From NCBI GenBank assembly GCA_040219235.1, contig JAVJSV010000016.1, forward strand, positions 434,001 to 498,000: DNA of 64,000 bases, read 5' to 3'. Shown piece by piece: positions 4,649 through 58,233 of the stretch. The translations under genes and the position numbers were made by a program. Positions within the stretch are counted from its first letter, which is position 1; each line of letters opens with the position of its first letter. The notes below the pieces were generated by a model. That model saw only the letters and a program-made list of their open reading frames with translations. It was not told the DNA's origin and searched no databases. The stretch is from Rhodospirillaceae bacterium (GTDB lineage: Bacteria; Pseudomonadota; Alphaproteobacteria; Rhodospirillales; Rhodospirillaceae).

Positions 4649-5343
4649 CGCACGCGATAGCGATCCCACTCTAAACACAGCTCCTGCAACGCACCGTAGT
4701 TGTGGTCCGTGTCTATGGCGCCATTTCTGCGCCGCTGTTCCTGCTTTAACGCATCCATCATGGGTTGAACCCGCTGCTGCAGGTCCGCAACAGCTCGCCT
4801 TGCCCCCATATTAACTGATGGTGCAAACAGGGGCGCAATACGTCGCAATTCATTCTCCAGGGATTGACGCAGGCGCGGCCCATAATCCTTGACGATCTCG
4901 AGGTTGATGGCCACATGCTCATTCTCATGATCCAGGATGGTGCGAAACTCGCAACTGCCACGCGGGTATTCCCGCCCCACATAGACAGACAGACGATCCA
5001 GGCCAAACTTGGCATTCACCTCATCCAGATAGACACAGTAGCCACCGCCTGGGCGCGGCAACGAGCGTGTGGACGCAGACAACCCCAATGAAATTTCGGC
5101 GTAGGTCAAGCCGATGGCATTTTCATGGGCACGGCTGATGCGCTGCCCGCGCACCGTGTAGAGCTGACGTACATCTTGAATTGAGAGGTCTGTATTGTAG
5201 GTGGGCTCGATCAACTGAGTATCGAAACGCAATCGCACAGCGTTTGAATAAGGCTCACAGAGATCACCTTGGGCGCGCACGACTTGGGCGACAGCAGAAC
5301 CAGCATGAAAGGCAAGCAAACAAACAAGAATGCGAAACAACAT
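4645..5343 (-). CDS. Secreted protein of unknown function with HExxH motif
   Basis: 232 residues with a clear signal peptide (MLFRILVCLLAFHAGSAVAQ, cleavage near residue 20). I do not recognise a named family. The mature part holds a D-HENEH sequence at 138-143, which fits the HExxH zinc-peptidase pattern, within a predicted helix, and four cysteines (29, 103, 131 and near the C-terminus) that could form disulfides in the periplasm. The second half looks helical and basic (QRRVQ-type stretches). A periplasmic metal-dependent hydrolase is a possibility, not a conclusion. It is convergent with erpA and overlaps it by four bases. Confidence 0.7.
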   Translation of the reverse strand: MLFRILVCLLAFHAGSAVAQVVRAQGDLCEPYSNAVRLRFDTQLIEPTYNTDLSIQDVRQLYTVRGQRISRAHENAIGLTYAEISLGLSASTRSLPRPGGGYCVYLDEVNAKFGLDRLSVYVGREYPRGSCEFRTILDHENEHVAINLEIVKDYGPRLRQSLENELRRIAPLFAPSVNMGARRAVADLQQRVQPMMDALKQEQRRRNGAIDTDHNYGALQELCLEWDRYRVR

Positions 5344-5419
5344 GCCTCAGATCGTAAACGCTGATCTCTGTTAAGCCTAGTACACAAAAAAGTCCTGAAA
5401 CCATAAGGCTCCAGGACAT

Positions 5420-5455
5420 AAAAAGCGGGCCCGAAACCTTGCGGCTTCGGGCCCA
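5420..5455 (-). terminator. Intrinsic terminator of the first TonB-dependent receptor gene
   Basis: A perfect 9-base inverted repeat, gggcccgaa at 5427-5435 and ttcgggccc at 5446-5454, with a 10-base loop. Read on the minus strand the stem is followed by GCTTTTT, the usual form of a Rho-independent terminator, 28 bases beyond the receptor stop codon. Confidence 0.85.
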
Positions 5456-5481
5456 GGGATCCCCTCCCCTGTGACAGGATC

Positions 5482-8052
5482 CTAGAACTCTAAGTTGGTA
5501 CGAATACCAAATGTCCGCTTCTGTTGCGGCACCAAGCCAATACCCTGAAGACTAAAGGACAGGTCGCCTTGTGACGAGAAATCGACGCCCCTTGAGCCGT
5601 TAACCCAGGAATCATCGTCGAACAGATTGCGCACGAACACTTCAACTCTCAAGCCCTCGCGCTGGACACCCAAAAAGGCATCAATCAGAAAGTAATCTTC
5701 GATGCTTGCTAGGTTCTCGAAATCAACCCATTGCTCGCCCATGTAAGAGACGTTGCCGCGGACGTACCAATTCCATTCATTGATGAGGATGTCTTCATAC
5801 GTCGTCGTCAAGTTACCCATCCATTCAGGGTAGCGCGCCTGCTCAAGACCCTTGTAGTTGTTGGATGGATAGAACGGAGCTGACGTCGAACGGAACTCGC
5901 TCCACTCGTTTTGGTTCCAACTGGCATTGAACTGCATTGAGAGGTTCTCAGTCGCTTGCCACCCGCTCTCAAGTTCCAGGCCCCACAGCTTCTGCTTACC
6001 AGAAACGCTAACCCCTAAAGTGTTCGGGAACTGATTTGGCAGTCTGTCACGCAGGTTCGGGTCATCGGCATCACGCACATAGCGAACCTGAACACCTGAC
6101 GGTAGATTTTTCCAAGTGTAGTAGTAGCCTGTTAGATTAAAGTTCAAAGTATTATCGAAAGCAGACTGCTTCCAGCCGATCTCCAACGCATCAAGTTTCT
6201 GAGACGGCGTAGACCCCTGCGATTCACCACTTGGGAACTGACGCGCCAACTGGTCACACTCAGAAATAGAGATAAATGTGCCTGGGTTTAGAGGATCTTC
6301 ATAAGGTTGGAGGAATGTCTCGTCGGAACAAATCGCCACCAGACCGTTGGTAACTCCTGGCAAACTGCCGCGTGAGACTTGCGCGTAAACTGTGGTCTCG
6401 TCGGTAGGACGATAGGTCAGGATAAAACGCGGTGTCCACTGCTTATATGTTGCTGCAAAACCTTGGACAAATGATCCGGCACGAATTTCGGACGTACGTT
6501 CGTCCTCAAGATAGCGCACTTCAGCATCGAAAGTGAGTTCTTCAGTGATGTCGTAAGACACTGAACCGTACACACCCCAGACCTCTGCAAGATTACCGCC
6601 CGTGGCTGGCAAACCAAACAATCCGGGACCAACAGCGCAAGTGCCAAAGCAAGAATTAATTGCTAACCCGCCGGCACCCGACGTTACAAACTTCTGATTA
6701 TAGTAGGTCGCTCCGCCCAACCAGCGAAGCCGTTCTTCGCCGGGCGAGGAAATACGTGCCTCGACTGAGTAATCTCGGCTGACTTGCGGATCGTTCGTGT
6801 ACCAACTCTCAATCGGGGTCCGGTCAAAGTCGAGAATATAGTTAAGATCGGAGTCATTGTAGCCCCCGGTCATATTGAAGTTGTATCCGTCGGCAAACTC
6901 CCAATCGAGATTCAGAGATGTCCGGAAGGTTTTCCGCACCAGCCCCATATGATCGATAGATGGCGCACCTTCTACAAATGGAGGGCCATTTACAAACGTA
7001 TCGATTAGATAGTCAGGACGAGCTGCAGGGGGCAAAAAACCGCCGTTAACACCGTCGAAAGCTGGACGAACAAGCGCGAAGAGTCCAGGTCTGAGACTCG
7101 TATTCAAGTCCACCGGCGGCGCACCCGTTTCTCCTACACCAGGGACCACACCGCAATAGTAAGCACCAAGAGTGAGTGTCGCAGGATTACCATCATCGTC
7201 AAGACGGTCACGGGTTTGCCCCAAACACGTCGGCGACAAGGTTTGCGCACGGAAAAACGCACTTACCGGATGACCATCGTCATCCTCTTGGTAAAAGACG
7301 CGCGCTTTAATTTTAATATCCTCATTAGGCTCCGCATAGATGACGCCGCTAATAGAATTAGATTCTTCTTCACCCAAGCCGCCTCCATCAGTTGCGGTAT
7401 ACTGGGCCCCACGTGCATACATACGCGCGGCAAGCTGAACCGCCATCTTGCCTTCCACGAGAGGTGCGCTTGCGATCGTGCTGAAATCGAATATTCCTCG
7501 CGTGGCTGCAGTCGCATCGATGACCATCTCATATTCTTCGAGGCTGGGTGTGCGCGTGATGTAGTTGATAGCACCCGCAAACGTGTTGCGGCCGAAGAAC
7601 GCAGACTGTGGGCCTTTAATGATTTCAACGCGTTCAAGCTCGTTCAGGGGGAGCACGTTTGCACCACCCAGAGAATAAACACCGTCAACAAACAGTGAGA
7701 CCGGTTGAATATGCGGAAGTGACCCGCCCGTCGCAACGCCGCGAATTCGAATCTGTGAATTAATGCGGCCACCGGTCCCGCTGGAAGCACGGGGGTCGAA
7801 TGTAACACCACTAGTCTGCATCACGATGTCGCCAAGATCCCGGAACCCTTGCTCGCGGATATCTGCAGCGCTGAAGGCTGCGATTGATAACGGAATGTCC
7901 TGCAAGCGCTCTTCACGTTGCCGCGCTGTTACGACAATTTCTTCAACAGCGAGCTGCTGGGCTGACGCCGGTGAAACGACAGATTGCCCGCCGAGCATGG
8001 TGGTTGCGGCGACCGTGCCGAGCAGTAAGGTTCTGGCAGATATAAAACGCAT
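5482..8052 (-). CDS. TonB-dependent outer-membrane receptor (1)
   Basis: 856 residues from ATG at 8052, preceded by a strong GGGGGAG ribosome-binding site; a TTG six codons upstream would bury that site in the coding sequence. Signal peptide 1 to about 31 (ending SPASAQ), then AVEEIVVTARQREE, a typical start of the mature protein and TonB-box region. The plug domain follows (LFVDGVYSL, ERVEIIKGPQSAFFGRNTFAGAINYITRTP) and a 22-strand-type barrel ends in an aromatic-poor C-terminus RTNLEF. It takes up a substrate across the outer membrane using TonB-ExbBD energy. The ligand is unknown; the neighbours (xthA, erpA) give no clue. The barrel resembles the two receptors at 22.7 and 25.3 kb. Confidence 0.93.
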   Translation of the reverse strand: MRFISARTLLLGTVAATTMLGGQSVVSPASAQQLAVEEIVVTARQREERLQDIPLSIAAFSAADIREQGFRDLGDIVMQTSGVTFDPRASSGTGGRINSQIRIRGVATGGSLPHIQPVSLFVDGVYSLGGANVLPLNELERVEIIKGPQSAFFGRNTFAGAINYITRTPSLEEYEMVIDATAATRGIFDFSTIASAPLVEGKMAVQLAARMYARGAQYTATDGGGLGEEESNSISGVIYAEPNEDIKIKARVFYQEDDDGHPVSAFFRAQTLSPTCLGQTRDRLDDDGNPATLTLGAYYCGVVPGVGETGAPPVDLNTSLRPGLFALVRPAFDGVNGGFLPPAARPDYLIDTFVNGPPFVEGAPSIDHMGLVRKTFRTSLNLDWEFADGYNFNMTGGYNDSDLNYILDFDRTPIESWYTNDPQVSRDYSVEARISSPGEERLRWLGGATYYNQKFVTSGAGGLAINSCFGTCAVGPGLFGLPATGGNLAEVWGVYGSVSYDITEELTFDAEVRYLEDERTSEIRAGSFVQGFAATYKQWTPRFILTYRPTDETTVYAQVSRGSLPGVTNGLVAICSDETFLQPYEDPLNPGTFISISECDQLARQFPSGESQGSTPSQKLDALEIGWKQSAFDNTLNFNLTGYYYTWKNLPSGVQVRYVRDADDPNLRDRLPNQFPNTLGVSVSGKQKLWGLELESGWQATENLSMQFNASWNQNEWSEFRSTSAPFYPSNNYKGLEQARYPEWMGNLTTTYEDILINEWNWYVRGNVSYMGEQWVDFENLASIEDYFLIDAFLGVQREGLRVEVFVRNLFDDDSWVNGSRGVDFSSQGDLSFSLQGIGLVPQQKRTFGIRTNLEF

Positions 8053-9326: not shown

Positions 9327-9689
9327 ATGCGCCGTCCTGCATCGCCTCAAAAATCCCCTAAAACGCCGGACCCACAACTTGCCTTCATCACCTCAGCCAT
9401 CCGCAAGGCCGACAAGATGCTGCATTGTTATCACCCCTTCCAGGTGAGACAGGTCCGGCAGTCTGTTGGCGGCAGCCAGCGGGAGTTCGCCACACGTTTT
9501 AGCCTCAGCCCGCGCACCCTGGCGAGCTGGGAAAGCGGACGGCGCGGCCCTGACCGGGCGGCCACGGCCCTGCTGAAAGTCATCGCCTATGCGCCGGAGG
9601 TGGTGGACGCGGCCCTGAAAGCCGACCCGGACCTGGTTGGCCGGGCTGCTGAGCAGGCTGAGCACCCTGAAAGCGATGAACGCGATTAA
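9327..9689 (+). CDS. XRE-family regulator, HigA/NadS-like, orphan
   Basis: 120 residues with a helix-turn-helix at about 40-95 (RQVRQSVGGSQREFATRF, then SPRTLASWESGRRGPD). The pattern SQREFA...TLxxWExGRRxP is that of NadS/HigA-type antitoxins that repress their own operon. No toxin gene accompanies it on either side: upstream is only AT-rich DNA and repeats, downstream is an aldo/keto reductase. It is therefore an orphan antitoxin-like regulator, or a regulator of the reductase 90 bases downstream. The operator-like palindrome at 9266-9284 supports autoregulation. Confidence 0.8.
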   Translation: MRRPASPQKSPKTPDPQLAFITSAIRKADKMLHCYHPFQVRQVRQSVGGSQREFATRFSLSPRTLASWESGRRGPDRAATALLKVIAYAPEVVDAALKADPDLVGRAAEQAEHPESDERD

Positions 9690-9779
9690 ATCGCCGTAAT
9701 CGTCGCACGCTTGAGATTGACGCCTAAGCGAACCACGTACAGAGTCTGAGAACGAGATCACAGTTCAGGACATGCCGCT

Positions 9780-10727
9780 ATGCCAGCACCATCTATGCCA
9801 AAAAAGCCTCTCACGCGCCGGGCTTTCAGCGCCCTCACCGTTGCCGCAACGGCGGCAGCCGCTATAACAACGCGCCCTACCGCCTTGAAAGCACAAGAAA
9901 AAATGATGACGCGGCCAATCCCTTCGTCGGGCGAAGCCCTGCCGGTGATCGGCCTTGGCACGTCCAGCTCGTTTATTGTGGACCGCAGCGATGCCGAGGC
10001 CATGGCGCAACGCAAGGCGGTGATTCAAACCCTTCTGGACAACGGTGGCGCGCTGATTGACACCGCGCCCTCCTATCGCGGCTCCGAAGCCATTGTGGGC
10101 GATCTGGTGAAAGACCTGGGCGTACGGGACGCTGCGTTTCTGGCCACCAAAGTCCGGGTGGAAGGCGAGCAGGACGGTCTGGAGGAGCTGGAAGCCTCGT
10201 TTGATCTGCTGCACAGCGACAGCATCGACCTCATTCAGGTTCATAACCTGGTCGACACCGACCGCAAGCTCGGCACCATGCGGGAATGGCGCGCAGATGG
10301 CCGCTATAAGTACATCGGCATCACCCACTGGCGGCCCGAAGCCCAAGAGGCCCTTGTGCCTGTTATGGAGCAGGAAAAGATCGATTTCTGCCAGTTTCAG
10401 TACAACATCGAGGAACGCAGCGCGGAAAACCGCCTGCTGCCGATCGCCGCTGAGCTTGGCGTCGCCACCCTGATCAATGTGCCGTTTGGCCGGGGCAGCC
10501 TGTTTGAGCAGACAGCAGGCCGGGACATCCCGGACTGGGCCGCAGAGTTCGCCTCAAGCTGGGGACAGTTTTACCTGAAATTTATTCTGTCTCACCCCGC
10601 CGTCACCTGCATCATTCCGGCCACCAGCAAGCCCAAGCATATGGTCGACAACGCGGGCGCAGGCATGGGGCGCTTGCCCGATGCCAAAGAACGCCAGCGG
10701 ATGATTGAGTACGTGGAGCGTATTTAA
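9780..10727 (+). CDS. TAT-exported aldo/keto reductase
   Basis: 315 residues. The N-terminus has a twin-arginine signal (LTRRAFSALTV, then an Ala-rich hydrophobic stretch, cleavage near ALKAQE), so a folded, cofactor-loaded enzyme is exported to the periplasm. The mature part is a TIM-barrel aldo/keto reductase: Asp and Tyr in LIDTAPSY, Lys in FLATKV and His in IQVHN make the catalytic tetrad. Substrate unknown. The last 71 bases of the gene and 26 bases after the stop are repeated at 11779-11875 as part of a direct repeat around a toxin-antitoxin insert. The reading frame here is complete. Confidence 0.88.
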   Translation: MPAPSMPKKPLTRRAFSALTVAATAAAAITTRPTALKAQEKMMTRPIPSSGEALPVIGLGTSSSFIVDRSDAEAMAQRKAVIQTLLDNGGALIDTAPSYRGSEAIVGDLVKDLGVRDAAFLATKVRVEGEQDGLEELEASFDLLHSDSIDLIQVHNLVDTDRKLGTMREWRADGRYKYIGITHWRPEAQEALVPVMEQEKIDFCQFQYNIEERSAENRLLPIAAELGVATLINVPFGRGSLFEQTAGRDIPDWAAEFASSWGQFYLKFILSHPAVTCIIPATSKPKHMVDNAGAGMGRLPDAKERQRMIEYVERI

Positions 10728-10753
10728 ACGTTTAGAGCCTGTCGTCAGGACGC
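10657..10753 (+). repeat. 97-bp direct repeat, copy 1 (3' end of the reductase gene)
   Basis: Covers the last 23 codons, stop and first 26 bases downstream of the aldo/keto reductase. Copy 2 at 11779-11875 differs at only two positions: T at 10666 versus C at 11788, and G at 10670 versus C at 11792. The final 83 bases are identical. The copies are in the same orientation and bracket 1,025 bases. Confidence 0.95.
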
Positions 10754-11025
10754 ATGTTTGTCCCGACCATGCTCCCCCGCTGGCACAAGACGCTGGCACA
10801 AGCGGCCTAAACGTTAAGCCGCTGAATGCGGGTAATGAGACTATCGCTTTTGAAAAGAAAAAATAGCAGGCTTTTGAATTACGCCCGCATCAATGTTAAT
10901 GGCTTTTCGGATGGTTCATTTTTTGCCAACTGGCAAGGTCGTCCATGACCGTTGGTAAATGGACAATGAGGGCCGCCGAGATGGCCCGCGATGTGCTTTC
11001 CCATCATGTTCAACCTGAAAAATAA
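10754..11025. other. Non-coding stretch between repeat copy 1 and brnT
   Basis: No supportable gene. It contains a 13-base tandem duplication (cgctggcacaag at about 10778 and 10791), an inverted repeat agcggc/gccgct at 10801-10823, and a small palindrome ttgccaactggcaa. It is less GC-rich than the flanking reductase gene and probably belongs to the inserted segment. Confidence 0.5.
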
Positions 11026-11060
11026 CTTTAAACGTAATACAATACGTATTACGTTTAAAG
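11026..11060. promoter_or_regulatory. 15-5-15 palindrome, probable brnTA operator
   Basis: Perfect inverted repeat with 15-base arms (ctttaaacgtaatac and gtattacgtttaaag) around aatac, ending one base before the brnT start. BrnA is known to repress its own operon through its ribbon-helix-helix domain, so this is the likely operator and overlaps the promoter. Confidence 0.75.
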
Positions 11061-11061
11061 C

Positions 11062-11364
11062 ATGGAATCAGCAATGTCGTTTGAATGGGATGCGGATAAA
11101 AACCGTGAAAACGTCACAAAGCACGGAGTTCGCTTTGAAGATGCTGTGAAAATTTTTGACGGTTTTACGGTCAATCACCTCGATGTTCGGTCTGAATATG
11201 GCGAAGACCGCGAAATTAGCATTGGGATGATTAGCGGCGTGGCCATCTTGGTTGTTGTTCACACAGACAGGAACGGCGTTTGCAGAATTATCTCTGCCCG
11301 CCCTGCAATTAAATCAGAAAGGAGAAGATATGAGCAAGCGATACGAGAAACCTTTGACACTTGA
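11062..11364 (+). CDS. brnT: BrnT-family toxin
   Basis: 100 residues (ATG at 11062; an internal ATG at 11074, giving MSFEWDADKN, is equally plausible). It matches the BrnT RNase toxin family: FEWDADKNRENVTKHGVRF at the N-terminus, the acidic-basic centre YGEDREISIG, the strand ILVVVHTD and the C-terminal RIISARPA...ERRRYE. BrnT is a RelE-fold ribonuclease neutralised by BrnA. The gene overlaps brnA by 35 bases and is preceded by a 35-base palindrome. Base composition is lower in GC than its neighbours and it lies inside a repeat-flanked insert. Confidence 0.92.
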   Translation: MESAMSFEWDADKNRENVTKHGVRFEDAVKIFDGFTVNHLDVRSEYGEDREISIGMISGVAILVVVHTDRNGVCRIISARPAIKSERRRYEQAIRETFDT

Positions 11365-11593
11365 GCAGATAGCCAACGTGCCAGATAATCAAATAGACAC
11401 AAGCGACATTCCCGAACTGGATGAAGCCTTTTGGGCTAATGCGAAGGTCACTCCACCCCGCACAAAACCGAACGTCAGCTTGCGGGTTGATGAGGCTGTC
11501 GTGGCCTATTTCAAAGCAGAAAATCCAAAGGGATATACGGCCCGAATGTCTGCTGTATTGGCGGCCTACGTTCAGGCACACCAGCCAAAATAA
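11330..11593 (+). CDS. brnA: BrnA-family antitoxin
   Basis: 87 residues from ATG 11330, which has a good AGGAGA ribosome-binding site; an upstream start at 11252 would lie inside brnT without such a site. The N-terminal half (ELDEAFWANAKV) is the toxin-wrapping part and the C-terminal half (PNVSLRVDEAVVAYFKAE, then YTARMSAVLAAYVQAH) is the ribbon-helix-helix DNA-binding domain. It neutralises BrnT and represses the operon. Confidence 0.92.
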   Translation: MSKRYEKPLTLEQIANVPDNQIDTSDIPELDEAFWANAKVTPPRTKPNVSLRVDEAVVAYFKAENPKGYTARMSAVLAAYVQAHQPK

Positions 11594-11599
11594 TCAACT

Positions 11600-11778
11600 T
11601 TAAAATATTATTGTGGTGTCCATGGCTCAAAAACAATTTAAGGCGTGAACCTTTAGCGGCAGCATATCTTTTGAGTGCCTTCATTGTGGGGCGGGTTGTG
11701 CAGCCTTCCAGTTTGGCAATATAAGATTGGGATGTTCCCATTTTTTTGGCCACATCTTCTTGCGCCATGTCCTCATGA
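11600..11778 (-). pseudogene. Truncated XRE antitoxin gene
   Basis: On the minus strand, a frame reads HEDMAQEDVAKKMGTSQSY, then IAKLEGCTTRPTMKALKRYA and AAKGSRLKLFL. This is the helix-turn-helix core of a HigA-type antitoxin (SQEDVAKRMGTSQ...LEGGxxxPxxxxLxRYAxA). Its N-terminal part is missing: the similarity stops exactly where the 97-bp repeat copy 2 begins (11779). The C-terminal end runs on antisense to brnA without a recognisable ending. No partner toxin is visible. A remnant cut by the recombination that produced the repeat. Confidence 0.75.
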
Positions 11779-49438: not shown

Positions 49439-50659
49439 GTGCCTAAGTTGTCCCGCCGAACGCTGGTGATCGGAGCCATTGTCCTTGTGGTTGCCGCCCT
49501 CATCGGCCTGTCCCTGCAACCGCAACCGGTTGGCGTGGATGCTGCCGCTGTCGTGCGGGGAGACTTGCTGGTCACCATCGACGACGAAGGTCAAACCCGT
49601 CTGAAAGATGTCTATGTTGTGTCCGCCCCCGTGGCAGGACGCGTACGCCGTATTGATATCGAAGCCGGTGATACGGCCATTGCAGGTGACACGGTTCTTG
49701 CCCTGTTTGAACCCTCCGATCCCGCCATGCTGGATGTCCGCAGCCGCACCGAAGCGGAAGCCTTTGTTAAAGCGGCTGAGGCCGCTGTCGGATTGGCAGA
49801 AGCTGAACAAAACCGCGCCCAGGCCCAGTTGGATTTCGCAGACGCGGAACTGAGGCGCGCCATTCCCCTGGCCGAGCGTGGCACCATTTCGCAAGCCACC
49901 CTTGATCAACGCCAACTGTCGCGGCGCACAGCCCAAGCTCAGTTGGCCCAGGCCACCGCCAGTTTGCGCAAAACCCGCGCTGATCTCGAGTCCGCCCGTG
50001 CCACCCTGATCACAGCGCGGCAAGTGGACAGCGGCGATGACGCCGACAACAAAGACCTCATCCCTGTGCGTGCTCCCATCAACGGGCGTGTCCTGCGCGT
50101 GCTGCAAGAAAGCGAAGGCGTTCTGGCGGCGGGCACCCCGCTGCTGGAACTGGGAGACCCGGCAAAGCTTGAAATTGTCGTCGATCTTCTGTCCACCGAT
50201 GCCGTTAAAATCAAGCCGGGCGACCGCGTGATCATCGATGACTGGGGCGGTGAAACCCCCTTGGAAGGCCGCGTGCGTTTGGTTGAGCCCTTTGGCTTCA
50301 CGAAAATCTCAGCGCTGGGAATCGAAGAACAGCGCGTCAATGTGGTGATTGATTTTGTCTCCCCGCAGCTTGAATGGCAAAGTCTGGGCCATGGCTACCG
50401 GGTTGAAACCCGGGTTGTCGTGCAAGATCGAAAGGACGTGCTCAAGCTTCCCATCAGCGCCCTGTTCAGGTCGGGAGAAAGCTGGGCCGTCTTCGTGAAT
50501 GAGGACAGCACCGCCCGATTGCGCAAAATCTCCCTAGGACAACGCAACACCCTTGAAGCCGAAGTGACAGAAGGTTTGTCAGAGAATGAGCTGATCATCC
50601 TGCATCCGTCCGATGCGATTGTTGACGGCGTCAGCGTAATGCAGCGCGGTGCGGGTTAA
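49439..50659 (+). CDS. HlyD/MacA-family periplasmic adaptor
   Basis: 406 residues from GTG 49439 with an AAAGGAG site. One membrane helix (about 9-27), lipoyl domain (VVSAPVAGRVRRIDIEAGD), coiled-coil hairpin (about 105-195, EAAVGLAEAEQNRAQAQLDF), second lipoyl half (VRAPINGRVLRVLQESEGV) and beta-barrel (VIDDWGGETPLEGRVR). Third gene of the operon, 18 bases after the permease. It connects the exporter to an outer-membrane TolC such as the one at 29.6 kb. Its end overlaps the next, convergent gene by four bases. Confidence 0.92.
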   Translation: MPKLSRRTLVIGAIVLVVAALIGLSLQPQPVGVDAAAVVRGDLLVTIDDEGQTRLKDVYVVSAPVAGRVRRIDIEAGDTAIAGDTVLALFEPSDPAMLDVRSRTEAEAFVKAAEAAVGLAEAEQNRAQAQLDFADAELRRAIPLAERGTISQATLDQRQLSRRTAQAQLAQATASLRKTRADLESARATLITARQVDSGDDADNKDLIPVRAPINGRVLRVLQESEGVLAAGTPLLELGDPAKLEIVVDLLSTDAVKIKPGDRVIIDDWGGETPLEGRVRLVEPFGFTKISALGIEEQRVNVVIDFVSPQLEWQSLGHGYRVETRVVVQDRKDVLKLPISALFRSGESWAVFVNEDSTARLRKISLGQRNTLEAEVTEGLSENELIILHPSDAIVDGVSVMQRGAG

Positions 50660-52038
50660 AGTACTTTTCCAGGATTCAAGATGCCCTTGGGATCGAGTGT
50701 CCGCTTGAGGGCGCGCATCACTTCAACTTCAGCCCCGGTGCGGCTCCAGTCCAGGTAGTCCCGCTTCTCGGTACCGATGCCGTGTTCGGCAGACACCGAC
50801 CCGCCAAGCTCGCGGATGATGCCATACAAAATATCATTCACCTTGCGGTGGGCCTCATCGGAGCCATCGCCGACCGCGACCACCGCATGCAAATTGCCGT
50901 CGCCGAGATGACCTAACACCAACGTCTTCGCGCCGGGAAACACGGCTGCAATGTCCGCCATCGCGCGCGTGCCGAAACCTTCCATGGTTAAAATGGGCAT
51001 GGAGACATCGTAGGTGAACATGGGCGAGAGGGTGCGAAAACCCTCACCAGCCCCTTCCCGAATGGCCCAGAGGTCACTGCGGTCGACCTCCGATTGAGCA
51101 ATTACCCCGTCCTGGACTAAACCCTGGGCATGGGCAATTTCCATGATATTTTCAAAGCGCTCGGCATCGCCGTCCGGGTCAGCCCCCAGAGCATCGGTCA
51201 CCACGTAGAAGTTATACTTTGGCTCCAAGGGCGGCTTCAGCGATGGGCAACGCTCACAGACGAAGTCGTAGTATTCGCGCCACATTACTTCAAAGGCTCC
51301 AAGCCCCCCGCTGAGCTTTGAATCCAATAGCGAGAGAAAACCGATCACCGACTTAAAATCGTTGATGCCAACAAACGCGGTTGACGTGGTCAGCGGCTTG
51401 GCTTGTAAGCGCATCACACAGCGCGTGACCAGACCGAGCGTGCCTTCCGAGCCGATAAACAACTGTTTGAGATCGTAGCCCGCGTTGTTTTTCAACATCC
51501 GATTCATCGAACTCAAGACGGTGCCATCGGCCAGCACGGCCTCCAGACCCAGCACCGACTGACGCGTCATGCCGTAACGAATGACCCGGTTACCGCCCGC
51601 ATTGGTGCTGATCAGCCCGCCAAGGGTCGCACTGCCCCGCGCACCTAAATCCACAGGCAACACAAAGCCAGCCTCATCAGCCGCGCCATGGGCGGTTTCC
51701 AGCACAACCCCGGCCCCCGCCACCATGGTCCGGCCATGGGGGTCAATCTCTTCGATCCCATTCATACGCTCAAGAGACAGAACAACGTCGCCATCGCCCG
51801 GTGCACCGCCGCCCACCAAGCCCGTCATACCGCCCTGAGGCACAACAGCGCGCCCGGCATCATGGCATAGCTTGAGAATGGCCGACACTTGCGCGGTGGT
51901 GGTCGGGCGCATCACACAGGCCGGAACACCTGCCGCGCCATGCCCGCGTGTATCCGTATAGCGGTGACCAATATCATCGCCCGTGAGCATACCCGAGGCA
52001 TCAACTGTCTTGGCCAAGTCCGCCAGCAAATCGGCCAT
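50656..52038 (-). CDS. FAD-linked oxidase, D-2-hydroxyacid dehydrogenase type
   Basis: 460 residues. FAD-binding domain of the VAO/PCMH fold (about 35-220: RPTTTAQVSAIL, VVPQGGMTGLVGGGAPGDGD, LGARGSATLGGLISTNAGG) and the GlcD-type C-terminal domain (about 240-455, VLGHLGDGNLHAVV with metal-binding His, SAEHGIGTEKRDYL). Closest in style to D-2-hydroxyglutarate or D-lactate dehydrogenases. Last gene of a four-gene minus operon with the NTF2-like, dimeric alpha-beta and nitrilase-fold genes, eight bases after the previous stop. Confidence 0.88.
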   Translation of the reverse strand: MADLLADLAKTVDASGMLTGDDIGHRYTDTRGHGAAGVPACVMRPTTTAQVSAILKLCHDAGRAVVPQGGMTGLVGGGAPGDGDVVLSLERMNGIEEIDPHGRTMVAGAGVVLETAHGAADEAGFVLPVDLGARGSATLGGLISTNAGGNRVIRYGMTRQSVLGLEAVLADGTVLSSMNRMLKNNAGYDLKQLFIGSEGTLGLVTRCVMRLQAKPLTTSTAFVGINDFKSVIGFLSLLDSKLSGGLGAFEVMWREYYDFVCERCPSLKPPLEPKYNFYVVTDALGADPDGDAERFENIMEIAHAQGLVQDGVIAQSEVDRSDLWAIREGAGEGFRTLSPMFTYDVSMPILTMEGFGTRAMADIAAVFPGAKTLVLGHLGDGNLHAVVAVGDGSDEAHRKVNDILYGIIRELGGSVSAEHGIGTEKRDYLDWSRTGAEVEVMRALKRTLDPKGILNPGKVL

Positions 52039-52046
52039 CTTAATTC

Positions 52047-52424
52047 CTAACCGGAAACCGTTTTGGGCAATACGTCCGCCAGATCGTTCCAGACCTGTTG
52101 ATCCACAATCAATCCATCGCGAAAAACAAAACGGTCAATGTAACGCACTTCGCTGATGGCCGACCCATCAAGAGCTTCACCGTTGAGCATGCCGGTATTG
52201 TAGACCACGGTCTCATCACCTGCTTCAAACACATCGAAGCCCTCAAAGGTTTTGGTGACGGATTTATAACGGCCTTTTGACCACGCGATCAGTTCCTCCA
52301 GAGACGTCATAGTTCTGCCGCCCGGGAAGGTCATTTTAAAATCCGGTGCGAGAAACTGGTGGGCGCGTTCTAAATCACGCTCCTCCATGGCCCGCAGGTA
52401 CTCTTTAACTTTATCTGCACTCAT
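52047..52424 (-). CDS. NTF2/SnoaL-like small protein
   Basis: 125 residues with the NTF2 fold pattern: KVKEYLRAMEERDLERAHQF, LAPDFKMTFPGG, VYNTGMLNG and YIDRFVFRDGLIVDQQVWND. Such proteins serve as small isomerases, hydrolases or binding domains; no catalytic assignment is possible. The ATG overlaps the stop of the upstream gene by one base, so it is in the operon. Its role in the pathway is unknown. Confidence 0.78.
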   Translation of the reverse strand: MSADKVKEYLRAMEERDLERAHQFLAPDFKMTFPGGRTMTSLEELIAWSKGRYKSVTKTFEGFDVFEAGDETVVYNTGMLNGEALDGSAISEVRYIDRFVFRDGLIVDQQVWNDLADVLPKTVSG

Positions 52425-52780
52425 CAGGCCACCTCGGCATCTTCTGTTACGGCTGCATAAACCTCCGGCGCAATCGTTATGTCGCCATGGGCGTTATCCA
52501 CCACGCACGGACAGTCAAAATACTCGATGCGCAAGTCCCTGCCATAGGTGCCGGTGATAAACGCTTCCCACGCGGGCGTGTAATAGGCTTTGGCATGGTC
52601 CATGGATTCCCACTCGTACCAGCCGCCCGCACGATTTTCATTTCCCATAAAATATTTACGGATCAGACCCGGAATTTTTTGATACTTCGGTGCTGTCGCT
52701 TCATATAACGCGAGCTTTTCCGACGGAGTCATTTCGGCCCGGCCTGGGTTAGGGACAAATGTAACGAGCGCCGTAATCAT
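52424..52780 (-). CDS. Dimeric alpha-beta barrel-like protein, possible monooxygenase
   Basis: 118 residues. The pattern ITALVTFVPNPGRAEMT, YQKIPGLIRKYFMGNENRAG, GWYEWESMDHAKAYYTPAW is that of YdhR-type ferredoxin-like monooxygenases, small dimeric proteins often in catabolic operons. The C-terminus has a Cys pair (DCPCVV). Begins 12 bases after the nitrilase-fold gene; overlaps the NTF2-like gene by one base. Confidence 0.7.
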   Translation of the reverse strand: MITALVTFVPNPGRAEMTPSEKLALYEATAPKYQKIPGLIRKYFMGNENRAGGWYEWESMDHAKAYYTPAWEAFITGTYGRDLRIEYFDCPCVVDNAHGDITIAPEVYAAVTEDAEVA

Positions 52781-52792
52781 CGCGGTTTCCTC

Positions 52793-53854
52793 CTAGGACA
52801 ACACGCCGTCTTTGCTCAGGCGTTCCAGCACCTCCTGCTGACGGCGGACGAAGAACGCACGGTCCGGCGTGACCACCTTGCCGTCCTCCATCATGGCGTT
52901 GGGCTCAACAAAGGTATGACTGCCGTACTCGCCGGCGTAAATACCGAACGGCTGGCGCGACAACAGGTTGGTCATGCCGGAGTGTTTACGCACTTTACGC
53001 AGGCTGTCCATGTCCAACATGGCGCTGGCGCAGAACGTCTCGCCGGTATAAGCCTCGGCCAGCACCAGACCCTTGTAGTCGACAATCTTCGACATGCCGC
53101 CCGTGGACTCAGCCGGAATAGAAATGCCCTTGATGCTCGCCGTGTTGGACGACACCACGTAGCACATGTTTTCAACGGCCCGGGCGCGGCGGCAGATTTC
53201 CTTCGGCGTCAGCATGGGCGCGCCCACTTCAGATGTGGAGTGACATAAAATCTCCATGCCCCGCATGGCCAGACAGCGCGCAATTTCCGGGTACAGAATT
53301 TCCTCGGAGGCGACACAGCCGATCTTGCCAATCTCGGTTTCTGCGACCGGAAACACCCCATCCGCACCATACAGGTCTAAGTACTTATCCCATACGTCAT
53401 AGGGACTTGGGGCAAACAACGACACCAACCGGCGATAGCGCAGAATGACATCGCCGTTAGGGCCGATGACAAAGCAGGTTTGAAAATAGAGTTCTGGAAA
53501 GTTCGGGTCATTCTCATACACATTGCCCGACAAAAAGCATTTGCGGCTTTGCGCAATCTTGCCCATCGCCTCGTATTCCGGCCCATCCATATCAATCGCG
53601 CCCAGTTCCTTCCAACGGGGAATGGACTCCCCCATGGGGAAGCTGGAGAGAAAATACTCGGGCAGTACAAACAACTGAGTTTTGGTGCCGCTGAAGCCCA
53701 TGGTGAACAGATCAATGCTGGTGATGTTGGTGCCCAGATGTTCGATCTGTTTGAGCATCTGCGCCGAGGCTTCCGCGCGGTCGGCACAATGATTGACCGC
53801 GTGGCAATCCACTTGCAGGGCCGTTGCTGTAAACGTCGTGTTTGGATCCGACAT
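52793..53854 (-). CDS. Nitrilase-fold protein without catalytic Cys and Lys
   Basis: 353 residues of the carbon-nitrogen hydrolase fold. The catalytic Glu is kept (Glu66 in VLPEYFLS). The lysine of the YRK motif is Arg142 (RYRRLV), and the active-site cysteine is replaced by Ser183 in KIGCVASEEILYPE, where active members have an IC(Y/W)(E/D)-type motif. Cys180 lies three residues earlier. The rest of the fold is intact, with AMRGMEIL and RARAVENMCYVVSSN. It may use Ser, or be a binding protein. First gene of the four-gene operon. The family annotation should not be read as proof of nitrilase activity. Confidence 0.85.
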   Translation of the reverse strand: MSDPNTTFTATALQVDCHAVNHCADRAEASAQMLKQIEHLGTNITSIDLFTMGFSGTKTQLFVLPEYFLSSFPMGESIPRWKELGAIDMDGPEYEAMGKIAQSRKCFLSGNVYENDPNFPELYFQTCFVIGPNGDVILRYRRLVSLFAPSPYDVWDKYLDLYGADGVFPVAETEIGKIGCVASEEILYPEIARCLAMRGMEILCHSTSEVGAPMLTPKEICRRARAVENMCYVVSSNTASIKGISIPAESTGGMSKIVDYKGLVLAEAYTGETFCASAMLDMDSLRKVRKHSGMTNLLSRQPFGIYAGEYGSHTFVEPNAMMEDGKVVTPDRAFFVRRQQEVLERLSKDGVLS

Positions 53855-55121: not shown

Positions 55122-56603
55122 CTAAATCCCCATAATCTCGAAGGCCGCGCGTTCGCCGGATTCCATTGCGCCTTCCATGCCCCGGTTCGACAGGGCTGTA
55201 TGTTCGCCACAGAAATGCACCCGGCCATGGACTTTGCTGGTGGCATGGAGAAATTCGGTCACCTGGCCCGGTTGCCACACCGCATAGTCGCCACCCGCAA
55301 AGGGGTCACGCAGCCACGACTTAATATGCGGCGCCTCCAGCTTGCCTTTGGCGGCGGGGCGCATACGTTCCATTTCAGAAATCACCCAAGCCTTGGCCTC
55401 CTCCGGATCAATTTGATCCAGCCTGTGGGCCATGAACCCGCGCGACCACGCCGTCAGACTGGTGACGTCGGTGTTGTCGATGTTGTGCCGGTTGGCGATG
55501 ATATGCCCGGCCACCGTGTCGGTCCACATGTCGGGCGACCATTCATCGTCTTCCCAGAACGGCTCTTTGGCCACCAAATGCACCTGAGTCATGGGGAAAT
55601 AGGGTACCAGAGCAATAGCCTTGGCCTGCACCGAAGACAAGAACGGATCAAACTTGATGTAGCGCATCACCGGCAGCGGCAGCGAGCACACCACGCGGTC
55701 GGCTTTGTAGGTTGAGCCATCCTGGCAGACGACCTCGGCCGCGTTGTCGCCGCTGCGGATACCAACGACTTCCTTGTTAAGATGGACTTCGCGCGCGAGA
55801 GTCTTGGCCATCATCTCCGGCATCGACATATTGCCACCGAGGGCCGAGAGTTGCGTCGGCTCCCCGCCCTGCATGGAGGCAACCCAGCCATCATTGAACC
55901 ACATCATCAGCGCCGAGATATCGTGCGCCGACGTGCCATAGGGCACATTCAGATTATAGGTCAGATCAATCTGTTCATCGGTAAACCCGGCGTCTTTGAA
56001 CACCTTGTAGACAGAGATGTCATAAGGTGCTGACTTGGCGTCGTACCAGTCCTCAAACGACTCCAGCGGATTGGTCCGGTTCAGGAGAACCAGCGGCACC
56101 AAACGCGGGCTGAAACTTTTCCAGTCGTCCGGCAGGATGTTTTTCGGATGCGTCGGCCAAGCCTCGTTGGAGATTCGCTCGCCATCCAAATACAACTCAA
56201 ACGGGGTCAACCGCTCCCGGCCTGCGGAATTCAAGACCGGAATGTTCAGCCGGTCGATGACATCAATCATGCGGCCATACCCGGCGCCGATGCCGTTGCC
56301 ACCCGCTTCCGGGTTGCCAGGGATATCCCTGAGCGAGAGTAAGCGGCCGCCAATGCGGTCCCGGCCTTCGATGACCTGCACCGAATAGCCCTGCTCCTCC
56401 AGCAGCATCGCCGCATTCAGACCCGACAGCCCGGCCCCGATGACAATAACATCTGTCTTATTTTGGGCTCTGAGCGGACGGGGTTTCAGTCCGGTCGCGG
56501 CTACCGCTGCGCCGGTGACAGCTAAAGCTGTGCGCCTTGAAACAAAGGCACTTGAAACAATGGGACTTGAAACAAAGGTATTCGCAACCGAATTAGATGG
56601 CAT
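55122..56603 (-). CDS. TAT-exported flavin amine oxidase (1)
   Basis: 493 residues. Twin-arginine signal (SRRTALAVTGAAVAATGL) followed by the FAD-binding motif VIVIGAGLSGLNAAMLLEEQ and the GG doublet in DRIGGRLLSL. The C-terminal FAD block is VHFCGEHTALSNRGMEGAME. Family of flavin-containing monoamine oxidases that oxidise amines to aldehydes; substrate unknown. It overlaps the upstream paralogous gene by 11 bases. The pair share GNGIGAGYGR, DIPGNPEAGG, YDAKSAPYDIS-like and SGERAAFE blocks, so they arose by duplication. Confidence 0.87.
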   Translation of the reverse strand: MPSNSVANTFVSSPIVSSAFVSRRTALAVTGAAVAATGLKPRPLRAQNKTDVIVIGAGLSGLNAAMLLEEQGYSVQVIEGRDRIGGRLLSLRDIPGNPEAGGNGIGAGYGRMIDVIDRLNIPVLNSAGRERLTPFELYLDGERISNEAWPTHPKNILPDDWKSFSPRLVPLVLLNRTNPLESFEDWYDAKSAPYDISVYKVFKDAGFTDEQIDLTYNLNVPYGTSAHDISALMMWFNDGWVASMQGGEPTQLSALGGNMSMPEMMAKTLAREVHLNKEVVGIRSGDNAAEVVCQDGSTYKADRVVCSLPLPVMRYIKFDPFLSSVQAKAIALVPYFPMTQVHLVAKEPFWEDDEWSPDMWTDTVAGHIIANRHNIDNTDVTSLTAWSRGFMAHRLDQIDPEEAKAWVISEMERMRPAAKGKLEAPHIKSWLRDPFAGGDYAVWQPGQVTEFLHATSKVHGRVHFCGEHTALSNRGMEGAMESGERAAFEIMGI

Positions 56604-58050
56604 CCATCACCTCAAAAGCCACGCGTTCACCAGACTCCATGGCGCCTTCCATACCCCGGTTCGACAGCGCGGTATGCTCGCCACAGAAATGCAGGTTACC
56701 ATGGGGTTGCGACATTTTAACGATGAATTGTTTGATTTGGCCCGGTTCCCACACCGCCCAGTCGCCCGACGAGAACGGATCGTTGTACCAGGATTTAAAG
56801 CCCGCCACCTCAAGCTTGCCCTTGGAGGCGGGGCGTTGCTCGGCCCAGGTGTCCAGAATCATCTGCTTAGCGTCGTCTTCCGGCAGTTGGTCGACCTGCT
56901 GGGCCTTCCAGCCACGATGCCAACAGGTGATGCTGGTGACCTCTTCCGGCGTCTCGCCAAAATGCTGCGCCATGACGTTGCCCAGAACCGTGTCCGAGAA
57001 CATGCCGATGGGCATGCCGTCTTCTTCCCAGAACGGGTCTTTCGCGACCAGATGCGATTGTGTCAGCAATTGCTTGCCCAGCGTCTGCACGGCATGAGCC
57101 TGCGCGCCTCGCAAGCCCGGCTCAATTTTCATCGTCCGCAACACAGAAAACGGAATCGACGAGACAATGCGTTTGGCACGATAGACTGTGCCGTCTGCGC
57201 AATGCGCCTCGGCCCCGGTTGCATCACTAGAAATACCGATCACTTTGCGGCCCAAGTGCACTTCGTTGTTCAGCGCAGCGGCCATGGCTTCCGGAATACG
57301 CTGGTTGCCGCCGACTGCGGCATAGGTGGCACGCGGCTGAATGGACCGCTGCATCATGCCCCAGGCATAGGTAAACATCAGCATCAGGGCCGACACATCA
57401 TACGACGAATTGCCGAAATCTGAATTGATGTTGTAGGCCAGATTGATCTGTTCGTCGGTGACGCCCCTGGATTTGAACCAGTCATGGACGGATATATCCA
57501 ACGGCGCACTTTTGGGGTCGTACCAGTCTTCGTACGACTCAAGGGGCATGTTCTGGATGATGAAGATGGGCACGAAGGACCACGGCATCATCGCCTTGTA
57601 TTTTTCGTCAAAGACGTTGCGCGGATGCGCGGGCCAGTCTTCAGCGCTGATCATTTTGCCGTCCAGGAACAGGCTCCTGTTCAGAATAAGCGGCGCGCGA
57701 TCCAAAATATTGTTCAGTTTGGCGCCAAACCGCTCGGCCGCATCAATCACCCGGCCATAGCCAGCCCCGATGCCGTTGCCGCCCGCTTCCGGGTTTCCCG
57801 GAATATCACTCAGCGATAAAATCCGGCCCCCGATGCGGTCCCGTCCTTCAATCACTTGGACGGAATAACCCTGATCTTGAAGCACATGCGCCGCCGAGAG
57901 GCCGGACAAACCCGCACCGATGATCAAAACATCAGACTGTGTCTGAGACCTTACGGGCTTGGAAGGCATGCCAACGCTGACACTGGTTGCCACAGCCGCA
58001 GCTCCGGCACTTTTTAGGGCTGTCCGTCGGCTAAAATGGTGTTTGGTCAT
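56593..58050 (-). CDS. TAT-exported flavin amine oxidase (2)
   Basis: 485 residues from ATG 58050 (MTKHHFSRRTALKSAGAAAV); the frame is open 39 codons further upstream but that part is without signal or family match. TAT signal with SRRTALK, FAD motif VLIIGAGLSGLSAAHVL, C-terminal block LHFCGEHTALSNRGMEGAME. Paralogue of the following gene and in the same operon with the cupin. Two exported oxidases side by side suggest different amines or a heteromeric enzyme. Confidence 0.87.
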   Translation of the reverse strand: MTKHHFSRRTALKSAGAAAVATSVSVGMPSKPVRSQTQSDVLIIGAGLSGLSAAHVLQDQGYSVQVIEGRDRIGGRILSLSDIPGNPEAGGNGIGAGYGRVIDAAERFGAKLNNILDRAPLILNRSLFLDGKMISAEDWPAHPRNVFDEKYKAMMPWSFVPIFIIQNMPLESYEDWYDPKSAPLDISVHDWFKSRGVTDEQINLAYNINSDFGNSSYDVSALMLMFTYAWGMMQRSIQPRATYAAVGGNQRIPEAMAAALNNEVHLGRKVIGISSDATGAEAHCADGTVYRAKRIVSSIPFSVLRTMKIEPGLRGAQAHAVQTLGKQLLTQSHLVAKDPFWEEDGMPIGMFSDTVLGNVMAQHFGETPEEVTSITCWHRGWKAQQVDQLPEDDAKQMILDTWAEQRPASKGKLEVAGFKSWYNDPFSSGDWAVWEPGQIKQFIVKMSQPHGNLHFCGEHTALSNRGMEGAMESGERVAFEVMDAI

Positions 58051-58233
58051 GGTCTGAAGTTCCCCTTGTGCGGTCCCGATCGGTACCCGTTTGAGCATCA
58101 CAGTTTGCGGCGAATGGTGAGCCACCGTAAAGCCCCACGATTCTTGCGGAAACCGTGGGTTGCCCAATGTCCACGGTGCGGTAGGATGCGGCAGATTCGC
58201 ACTTACTCACAGAAGACACGACAGGCTAGCCAT

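Follow-up and report, generated by a model that had tools for sequence, protein, structure and literature searches.

Can a nitrilase-fold protein in which the catalytic Cys is replaced by Ser still be a working enzyme? The question is raised by a gene on the minus strand at 52793..53854 of the window, i.e., the whole stretch of 64,000 nucleotides of Rhodospirillaceae DNA that was analyzed. Cys-Glu-Lys is the textbook mark of the superfamily, and an E-R-D-S site that is natural and fixed makes it possible to test readily whether serine chemistry works in the nitrilase fold. All superfamily members are described in PMC4700190 as sharing an E-K-C-E active site.

Fold and active-site residues

The gene is an ATG-to-stop open reading frame of 353 aa, and CN_hydrolase (residues 37-290; 94.8 bits, E 7.2e-27, cutoff 23.2) is the sole Pfam domain of the protein, with no further Pfam match at E 0.01. 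The AlphaFold model (pLDDT 90.7, pTM 0.92) is a high-confidence amidase fold that, among PDB structures, most closely resembles aliphatic amidase 2uxy (Z 33.3, rmsd 3.1, 294 residues, ~20% identity), and the formamidase 5g3p is also among the top structural matches (Z 32.1). The Pfam score, the model and the PDB matches place the protein by fold in the nitrilase superfamily (PF00795). NCBIfam gave distant matches only, the best being N-carbamoylputrescine amidase TIGR03381 at 58.7 bits against a cutoff of 410.25; the aliphatic amidase AmiE model NF009802 (50.3 bits, curated cutoff 427) and the formamidase AmiF model NF009803 (55.4 bits, curated cutoff 406) fell equally short. Amidase or nitrilase names given from fold alone are unsafe for such proteins. 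No match was found in the phage collection at 1e-5, and a phage gene was rejected. The plasmid collection gave its best match, at 46%, in an 11.9 Mb Nonomuraea record, where the Ser site is present too.

Residue equivalences were taken from the clade profile aligned to PDB sequences, and the AmiE numbering of the triad follows PMC6699081. The first-pass annotation had read Ser183-Glu66-Arg142 where the family has Cys-Glu-Lys, and the reading frame, the codon positions and the profile alignment to AmiE bear out its residues, numbering and coordinates. On the minus strand, Glu66 (GAG, 53657..53659) corresponds to the conserved catalytic AmiE Glu59, Arg142 (CGG, 53429..53431) replaces the catalytic Lys134, and Ser183 (TCC, 53306..53308) replaces the nucleophile Cys166. 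Residues 141 and 142 are both Arg, and the catalytic column is set by the aligned Y-R-K of AmiE. The alignment adds a change at the fourth site that was absent from the first reading, namely Asp153 (53396..53398) on AmiE Glu142, where P-y-D-v-W stands against P-I-E-G-W. Thus, of the superfamily site, the clade retains the catalytic Glu and has replaced the Lys, the Cys and the second Glu.

Conservation and phylogeny of the Ser site

Relatives at 48-92% identity are encoded by 41 loci of the genome collection (L011-L051), and every one of them carries Ser, Arg and Glu at the corresponding columns. The carriers include Rhodospirillaceae MAGs, Sphingobium, Hyphomonadaceae, Lysobacter, Woeseiaceae, Emcibacter, other Gammaproteobacteria and one Saprospiraceae MAG. 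A sequencing error or lone mutant is ruled out by these relatives. In the same alignment, 23 remote proteins from those loci have Cys in 22 cases and are of a loop-deleted type in one. In an alignment of 32 rows, made up of the window protein, two paralogues from its genome and 29 of the L011-L051 loci, 57 of 353 positions were invariant, including E66, R142, D153 and A182-S183-E184-E185; a simple hypergeometric count gives 6e-4 for all four site columns being among the 57.

The pattern extends to a broader set of domains (L001-L177), which came to 140 unique domains after fragments below 150 profile positions and duplicates were removed from 205 rows. All 72 domains that score above 380 bits read E-R-D-S-E-E, with no Ala or Gly at 183 among them, and the best-scoring domain without Ser (349 bits) reads E-R-D-C-G-E. 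As the Ser swap is fixed across a group whose genes tend to accompany ring-opening genes, the site looks like a retooled working site and not like a broken one.

The tree was built by a quick method from 79 domains, with long branches flagged and the residues of columns 142 and 183 masked; rows shorter than 240 aa, N-domains that are degenerate and rows sharing at least 80% identity were left out. The Ser clade comprises 31 rows with an SH-aLRT support of 99, its neighbouring clade has Arg with Cys, and the node that unites the two has a support of 90. Whether Ser is conserved in a distinct clade was the check proposed with the original annotation, and the 41 relatives, the invariant column and the clade support answer it positively. 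Lys to Arg takes one change on the tree and Arg-with-Ser takes two, of which the second maps to L123 (genome G007), a long branch inside the Arg and Cys clade. Lys-type relatives carry Cys, Ala or Gly at 183, and Ala needs three changes, at least two of them forced by starred branches. Most of the Lys-type relatives with P-x-D at 151-153 group with the Ser clade; among the 19 such domains, 10 have Cys at residue 183, 5 have Ala and 4 have Gly, and 17 retain Glu66.

The Ser183 codon is TCN in 66 and AGY in 7 of 73 domains. Of the AGY rows, six make up a single Hyphomonadaceae group that lies within the Ser clade and is 83-90% identical to L038, with the nearest TCN rows at 78%. A switch from TCN to AGY takes two changes, and single steps pass via Cys or Thr; Ser was therefore kept or restored in the Hyphomonadaceae group. 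AGY also occurs at other invariant or near-invariant serines (8/72 at Ser235, 3/73 at Ser255 and 1/72 at Ser145), and these similar mixtures indicate that Ser183 is about as needed as those serines, and no more. The dN/dS values of 0.016 and 0.033, which were finite in two of six pairs, are rough because both dS exceed 2 and are saturated. A decaying pseudogene is rejected because the frame is open and dN is low.

Comparison with known systems

AmiE and AmiF are the best structural matches and share with the window protein the equivalence of Glu66 and Glu59 and the aligned P-x-[DE]-x-W loop. They differ in that the window protein has Arg for Lys134, Asp for Glu142 and Ser for Cys166, is ~20% identical and lies far under the NCBIfam cutoffs. 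The Lys-type P-x-D relatives, named "nitrilase-related carbon-nitrogen hydrolase" in several records, share Asp153 in the common motif, but differ at 142, which is Lys, and at 183, which is Cys, Ala or Gly, and the annotations seen for them carry no specific function.

Ser at the nucleophile position of the same fold is also found in AmiF 2e2k, whose sequence has Ser where 2dyu has Cys and which is presumably a laboratory mutant too. MtCPA C158S (5h8k, 5h8l) is a laboratory mutant with strongly diminished reactivity (PMC4812014), and both keep the catalytic Lys, unlike the window protein. A Geobacillus amidase with E142D, i.e., the exchange seen at Asp153, is called catalytically inactive (PMC6699081). 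Natural Ser has been reported in cephalopod symplectin/vanin-like proteins, where E-K-S and E-R-S triads are described, so that these proteins have Ser in the nucleophile column and some of them also Arg (PMC5541922). However, they are described as animal two-domain proteins of the vanin branch with an extra base domain after the nitrilase domain (PMC5541922), and by Pfam the 353 aa of the window protein hold only CN_hydrolase at 37-290 and show no base domain.

We found no description of the bacterial Ser-type clade in the open-licence literature on natural-serine or inactive members, which is weak evidence of absence, and found no measured activity for any member of the clade. Natural Ser in the nitrilase fold is thus already known from cephalopods, and what is new, as far as the open-licence literature goes, is that bacteria have a clade in which the E-R-D-S site is fixed and which is linked to a catabolic module.

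Gene neighbourhood

Downstream of the Ser gene on the minus strand lie genes for a 118 aa protein that is weakly ydhR-like (52424..52780; Pfam ydhR 4.1e-5, with 23.9 bits where the cutoff is 27.1), a 125 aa SnoaL-like protein (52047..52424; Pfam SnoaL_2 2e-11), whose gene overlaps the ydhR-like gene by one base, and a 460 aa FAD-linked oxidase of GlcD type (50656..52038; Pfam FAD_binding_4 and FAD-oxidase_C). Judging by the 12-base gap, the ydhR-like gene is possibly in one operon with the Ser gene. The order Ser gene, ydhR-like, SnoaL-like and GlcD-type oxidase is kept in close relatives. Upstream on the same strand, two adjacent flavin amine oxidase genes (window 55122-58167) recur near the Ser gene in close relatives, and the 524-aa flavin amine oxidase has a weak Tat-signal match (E 0.0055).

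The neighbours at 61 Ser loci, which are not mutually independent, include PuuE-like genes (18), FAD_binding_4 (15), GlcD-type FAD oxidases (11), TonB receptors (14), a family of ~235 aa (13), aldehyde dehydrogenases (12), the DUF1330 family (12) and the DUF1838 family (10), and several of the aldehyde dehydrogenase genes overlap or abut the Ser gene. As an instance of the dependence between loci, the contigs of L184 and L044 are equal in length. These gene calls were made by a codon-usage script that recovered the CN_hydrolase gene in 54 of the 61 loci, several of the others being overlain by an opposite-strand call. The PuuE-like, FAD_binding_4, TonB, ~235-aa, aldehyde dehydrogenase, DUF1330 and DUF1838 families were each absent from 36 comparison loci, which are mostly Bacteroidota and an unmatched background. 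Because of this mismatch, we give more weight to the genome-wide co-occurrence than to the neighbour counts.

In the window's genome, DUF1838-family genes (L099:9882-10787, L101:2324-3226 and L102:3561-4421) are also found close to three further paralogues of the CN_hydrolase type. The one in L102 is 31 bases from an Arg and Cys paralogue, and DUF1838 genes are found near Ser genes elsewhere.

Association with PuuE-like genes

At 1e-60, PuuE-like matches were present in all seven Ser-positive genomes of the window's class but in only 10 of 282 Ser-negative ones (17/289 in total; Fisher 6e-10). In the class of genome G404, taken as Gammaproteobacteria because its Ser protein groups with Lysobacter, they were present in 2/3 Ser-positive genomes compared to 0/226 others (2/229 in total; 1.1e-4). 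The two class samples agree on the co-occurrence, although the p-values overstate independence since the genomes are related: the statistics ignore kinship, and the seven Ser-positive genomes of the window's class represent five family codes. At 1e-20, all but one of 14 Ser genomes had PuuE-like matches, often in tandem pairs, and the exception is G699, which has a Ser gene and no such match. Locus L022 of Sphingobium chungbukense DJ77 contains a Ser gene together with PuuE-like genes. The window's genome has four PuuE-like matches, none of them on contig C16 with the Ser gene, and a PuuE-like pair lies on contig C12. The four PuuE-like proteins scanned are of the polysaccharide-deacetylase type and score 64-118 bits against a PuuE cutoff of 424.6, so we do not call them allantoinases.

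In several regions an isochorismatase-fold protein, 61-92% identical across regions, is encoded next to or near the PuuE-like genes, and N-carbamoylsarcosine amidohydrolases are among its best PDB matches. The same stretch of contig C12 (L214) encodes an acyl-CoA dehydrogenase, a methyltransferase, an FAD oxidase, a PrpB-like lyase that at 299 bits stays under its cutoff of 354, and a dehydratase with a small subunit that passes the LeuD/DmdB model. Judged by gene content, the set could serve to open a hydantoin or cyclic imide, with removal of ammonia, hydration of the resulting dicarboxylate and finally its cleavage. Substituted maleimides from tetrapyrroles would fit the module, and TonB receptors would suit a bulky substrate. 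Nothing recognisable as this context module was found in the open-licence literature, again weak evidence of absence, and the gene association gives a handle on a possibly undescribed catabolic pathway for nitrogen rings.

Beside the PuuE-like module, L214:3387-8893 encodes five similar proteins of 303-344 aa nearly consecutively. A relative at L180:15446-16330 has a weak glyoxalase match, and the L214 protein scanned has none.

Proposed function and alternative explanations

We tentatively propose that the protein is a retooled Glu66-Arg142-Asp153-Ser183 hydrolase of nitrogen-ring catabolism, with Ser183 as nucleophile and Glu66 as base, a reading that may well prove wrong. Ser183 would be deprotonated by Glu66 and then attack the substrate carbonyl, Arg142 might stabilise the oxyanion or hold a carboxylate produced by the partner ring hydrolases, and Asp153 might orient the substrate, after which the acyl-serine would be released by water. 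Likely substrates would be esters, lactones, imides or other activated carbonyls, adjacent to a PuuE-like ring opening. We favour a working site because all four sites are conserved and the gene is tied to a ring-hydrolase gene. Against the pathway tie stand the lack of a PuuE-like gene in G699, its presence in 10 of 282 Ser-negative genomes, and the location of the PuuE-like pair away from C16. As Cys-to-Ser and E142D exchanges cripple related enzymes, activity is not to be assumed, and with Ala or Gly in the same column of 9/19 Lys-type relatives, most of which keep Glu66, the conserved frame is no proof of covalent catalysis.

The changes at three of the four catalytic positions, two of them comparable to single exchanges that cripple related enzymes (Cys to Ser, Glu142 to Asp), also suit a conserved pseudoenzyme, whose pocket would bind a ligand or an active paralogue without chemistry, as a sensor, scaffold or regulatory subunit of the same pathway. 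The window's genome is rich in degenerate-site paralogues, including seven two-domain proteins with nucleophile-less N-domains, and the Ala and Gly forms recur. However, the exchanges (K to R, E to D, C to S) are mild in chemical terms and are fixed in members from Pseudomonadota, one Saprospiraceae MAG and one Nonomuraea record, and the combination of Arg with Ser requires its two changes on the tree. Nor was a close Cys partner seen at the thresholds used in Ser-positive genomes outside the window's family, which have a single match each (at 1e-60 in one sample and 1e-25 in two) except G404, where the second match is of the loop-deleted type (L171). Taken together, we regard a pseudoenzyme as somewhat unlikely.

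The retooled hydrolase could also be one facet of a wider shift, in which a branch of the superfamily left cysteine chemistry, kept the Glu-(Lys/Arg)-Asp frame and exchanged its nucleophile for Ser (in two changes), Ala or Gly, with the Arg-Ser clade as a dedicated step of an undescribed ring-opening pathway. We consider this broader scenario fairly unlikely. Our guess is that such a pathway would be marked by the isochorismatase/N-carbamoylsarcosine-amidohydrolase-like protein, the paired PuuE-like cyclic amidohydrolases, the LeuD/DmdB-type dehydratase and the PrpB-like lyase, and would suit substituted maleimides, with tetrapyrrole breakdown as an example suggested by gene content only.

More doubtful is non-covalent catalysis, in which Glu66 and Asp153, with Arg142 or Lys, would activate water or move protons in a hydrolysis, lyase or isomerase reaction and residue 183 would only shape the pocket. 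The variation at 183 in the 19 Lys-type P-x-D domains points this way, as does the spread of the Ala form over Halorientalis, Haladaptatus, Tsukamurella, Flammeovirga and a genome of the class of G404. On the other hand, the 72 Ser-clade domains are uniformly free of Ala and Gly, which pocket shaping alone would not obviously demand, and in two Novosphingobium Gly forms even the frame is altered, with Gln in the Glu66 column. Finally, Cys180 (TGT, 53315..53317, minus strand), three residues before Ser183 and offered by the first-pass annotation as a possible nucleophile, is ruled out as the nucleophile across the clade, since its column holds Cys in 26 of 73 E-R-D-S domains, with A, T, S, P, G, V or M in the remaining 47, and the profile places Ser183 on AmiE Cys166.

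Distribution and paralogues

Ser genes are sparse. They were detected in 7/289 genomes sampled from the window's class, Alphaproteobacteria, in 3/398 of a sample of the window's phylum (where two further matches are Lys-Cys types), in 3/229 from the class of G404 and in 5/82 in the family of G215; for many genomes only the best candidates were scored. Among the window's genome and 40 relatives, 11/41 have any match at 1e-20, and these belong to five genera. The window's genome encodes three Ser proteins, the window protein included, three Arg and Cys paralogues and many more distant CN_hydrolases.

Seven proteins of this genome, 588-716 aa in length, have two CN_hydrolase stretches (L088:1824-3821, 4655-6637 and 9516-11606; L089:1247-3397; L090:1818-3728; L091:1705-3471; L092:1789-3822). 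The C-terminal stretch keeps Glu-Lys-Cys and the N-terminal one lacks a nucleophile, with Gly or Lys aligned there; to judge by these residues, each of the seven appears to join a pseudo-domain to an active one.

The Lys-type relatives in which 183 is Ala retain Glu66, Lys and Asp153 and occur in haloarchaea (Halorientalis, Haladaptatus), Tsukamurella, Flammeovirga, G884 and the window's genome; their loci are L147:2935-4026, L148:2947-4038, L149:2872-3987, L160, L205:6001-7107 and L093:1772-3058. Gly occupies the nucleophile column in L151, L155, L176 and L177, i.e., the two Novosphingobium records, where Gln replaces the catalytic Glu, and two genomes of family f69. A separate CN_hydrolase clade with a support of 100 (L094:1723-2796, L096:1393-2559, L097:1598-2740, L047:57-1466 and L171) has a gap beside the nucleophile column, where Val, Ser or Thr is aligned.
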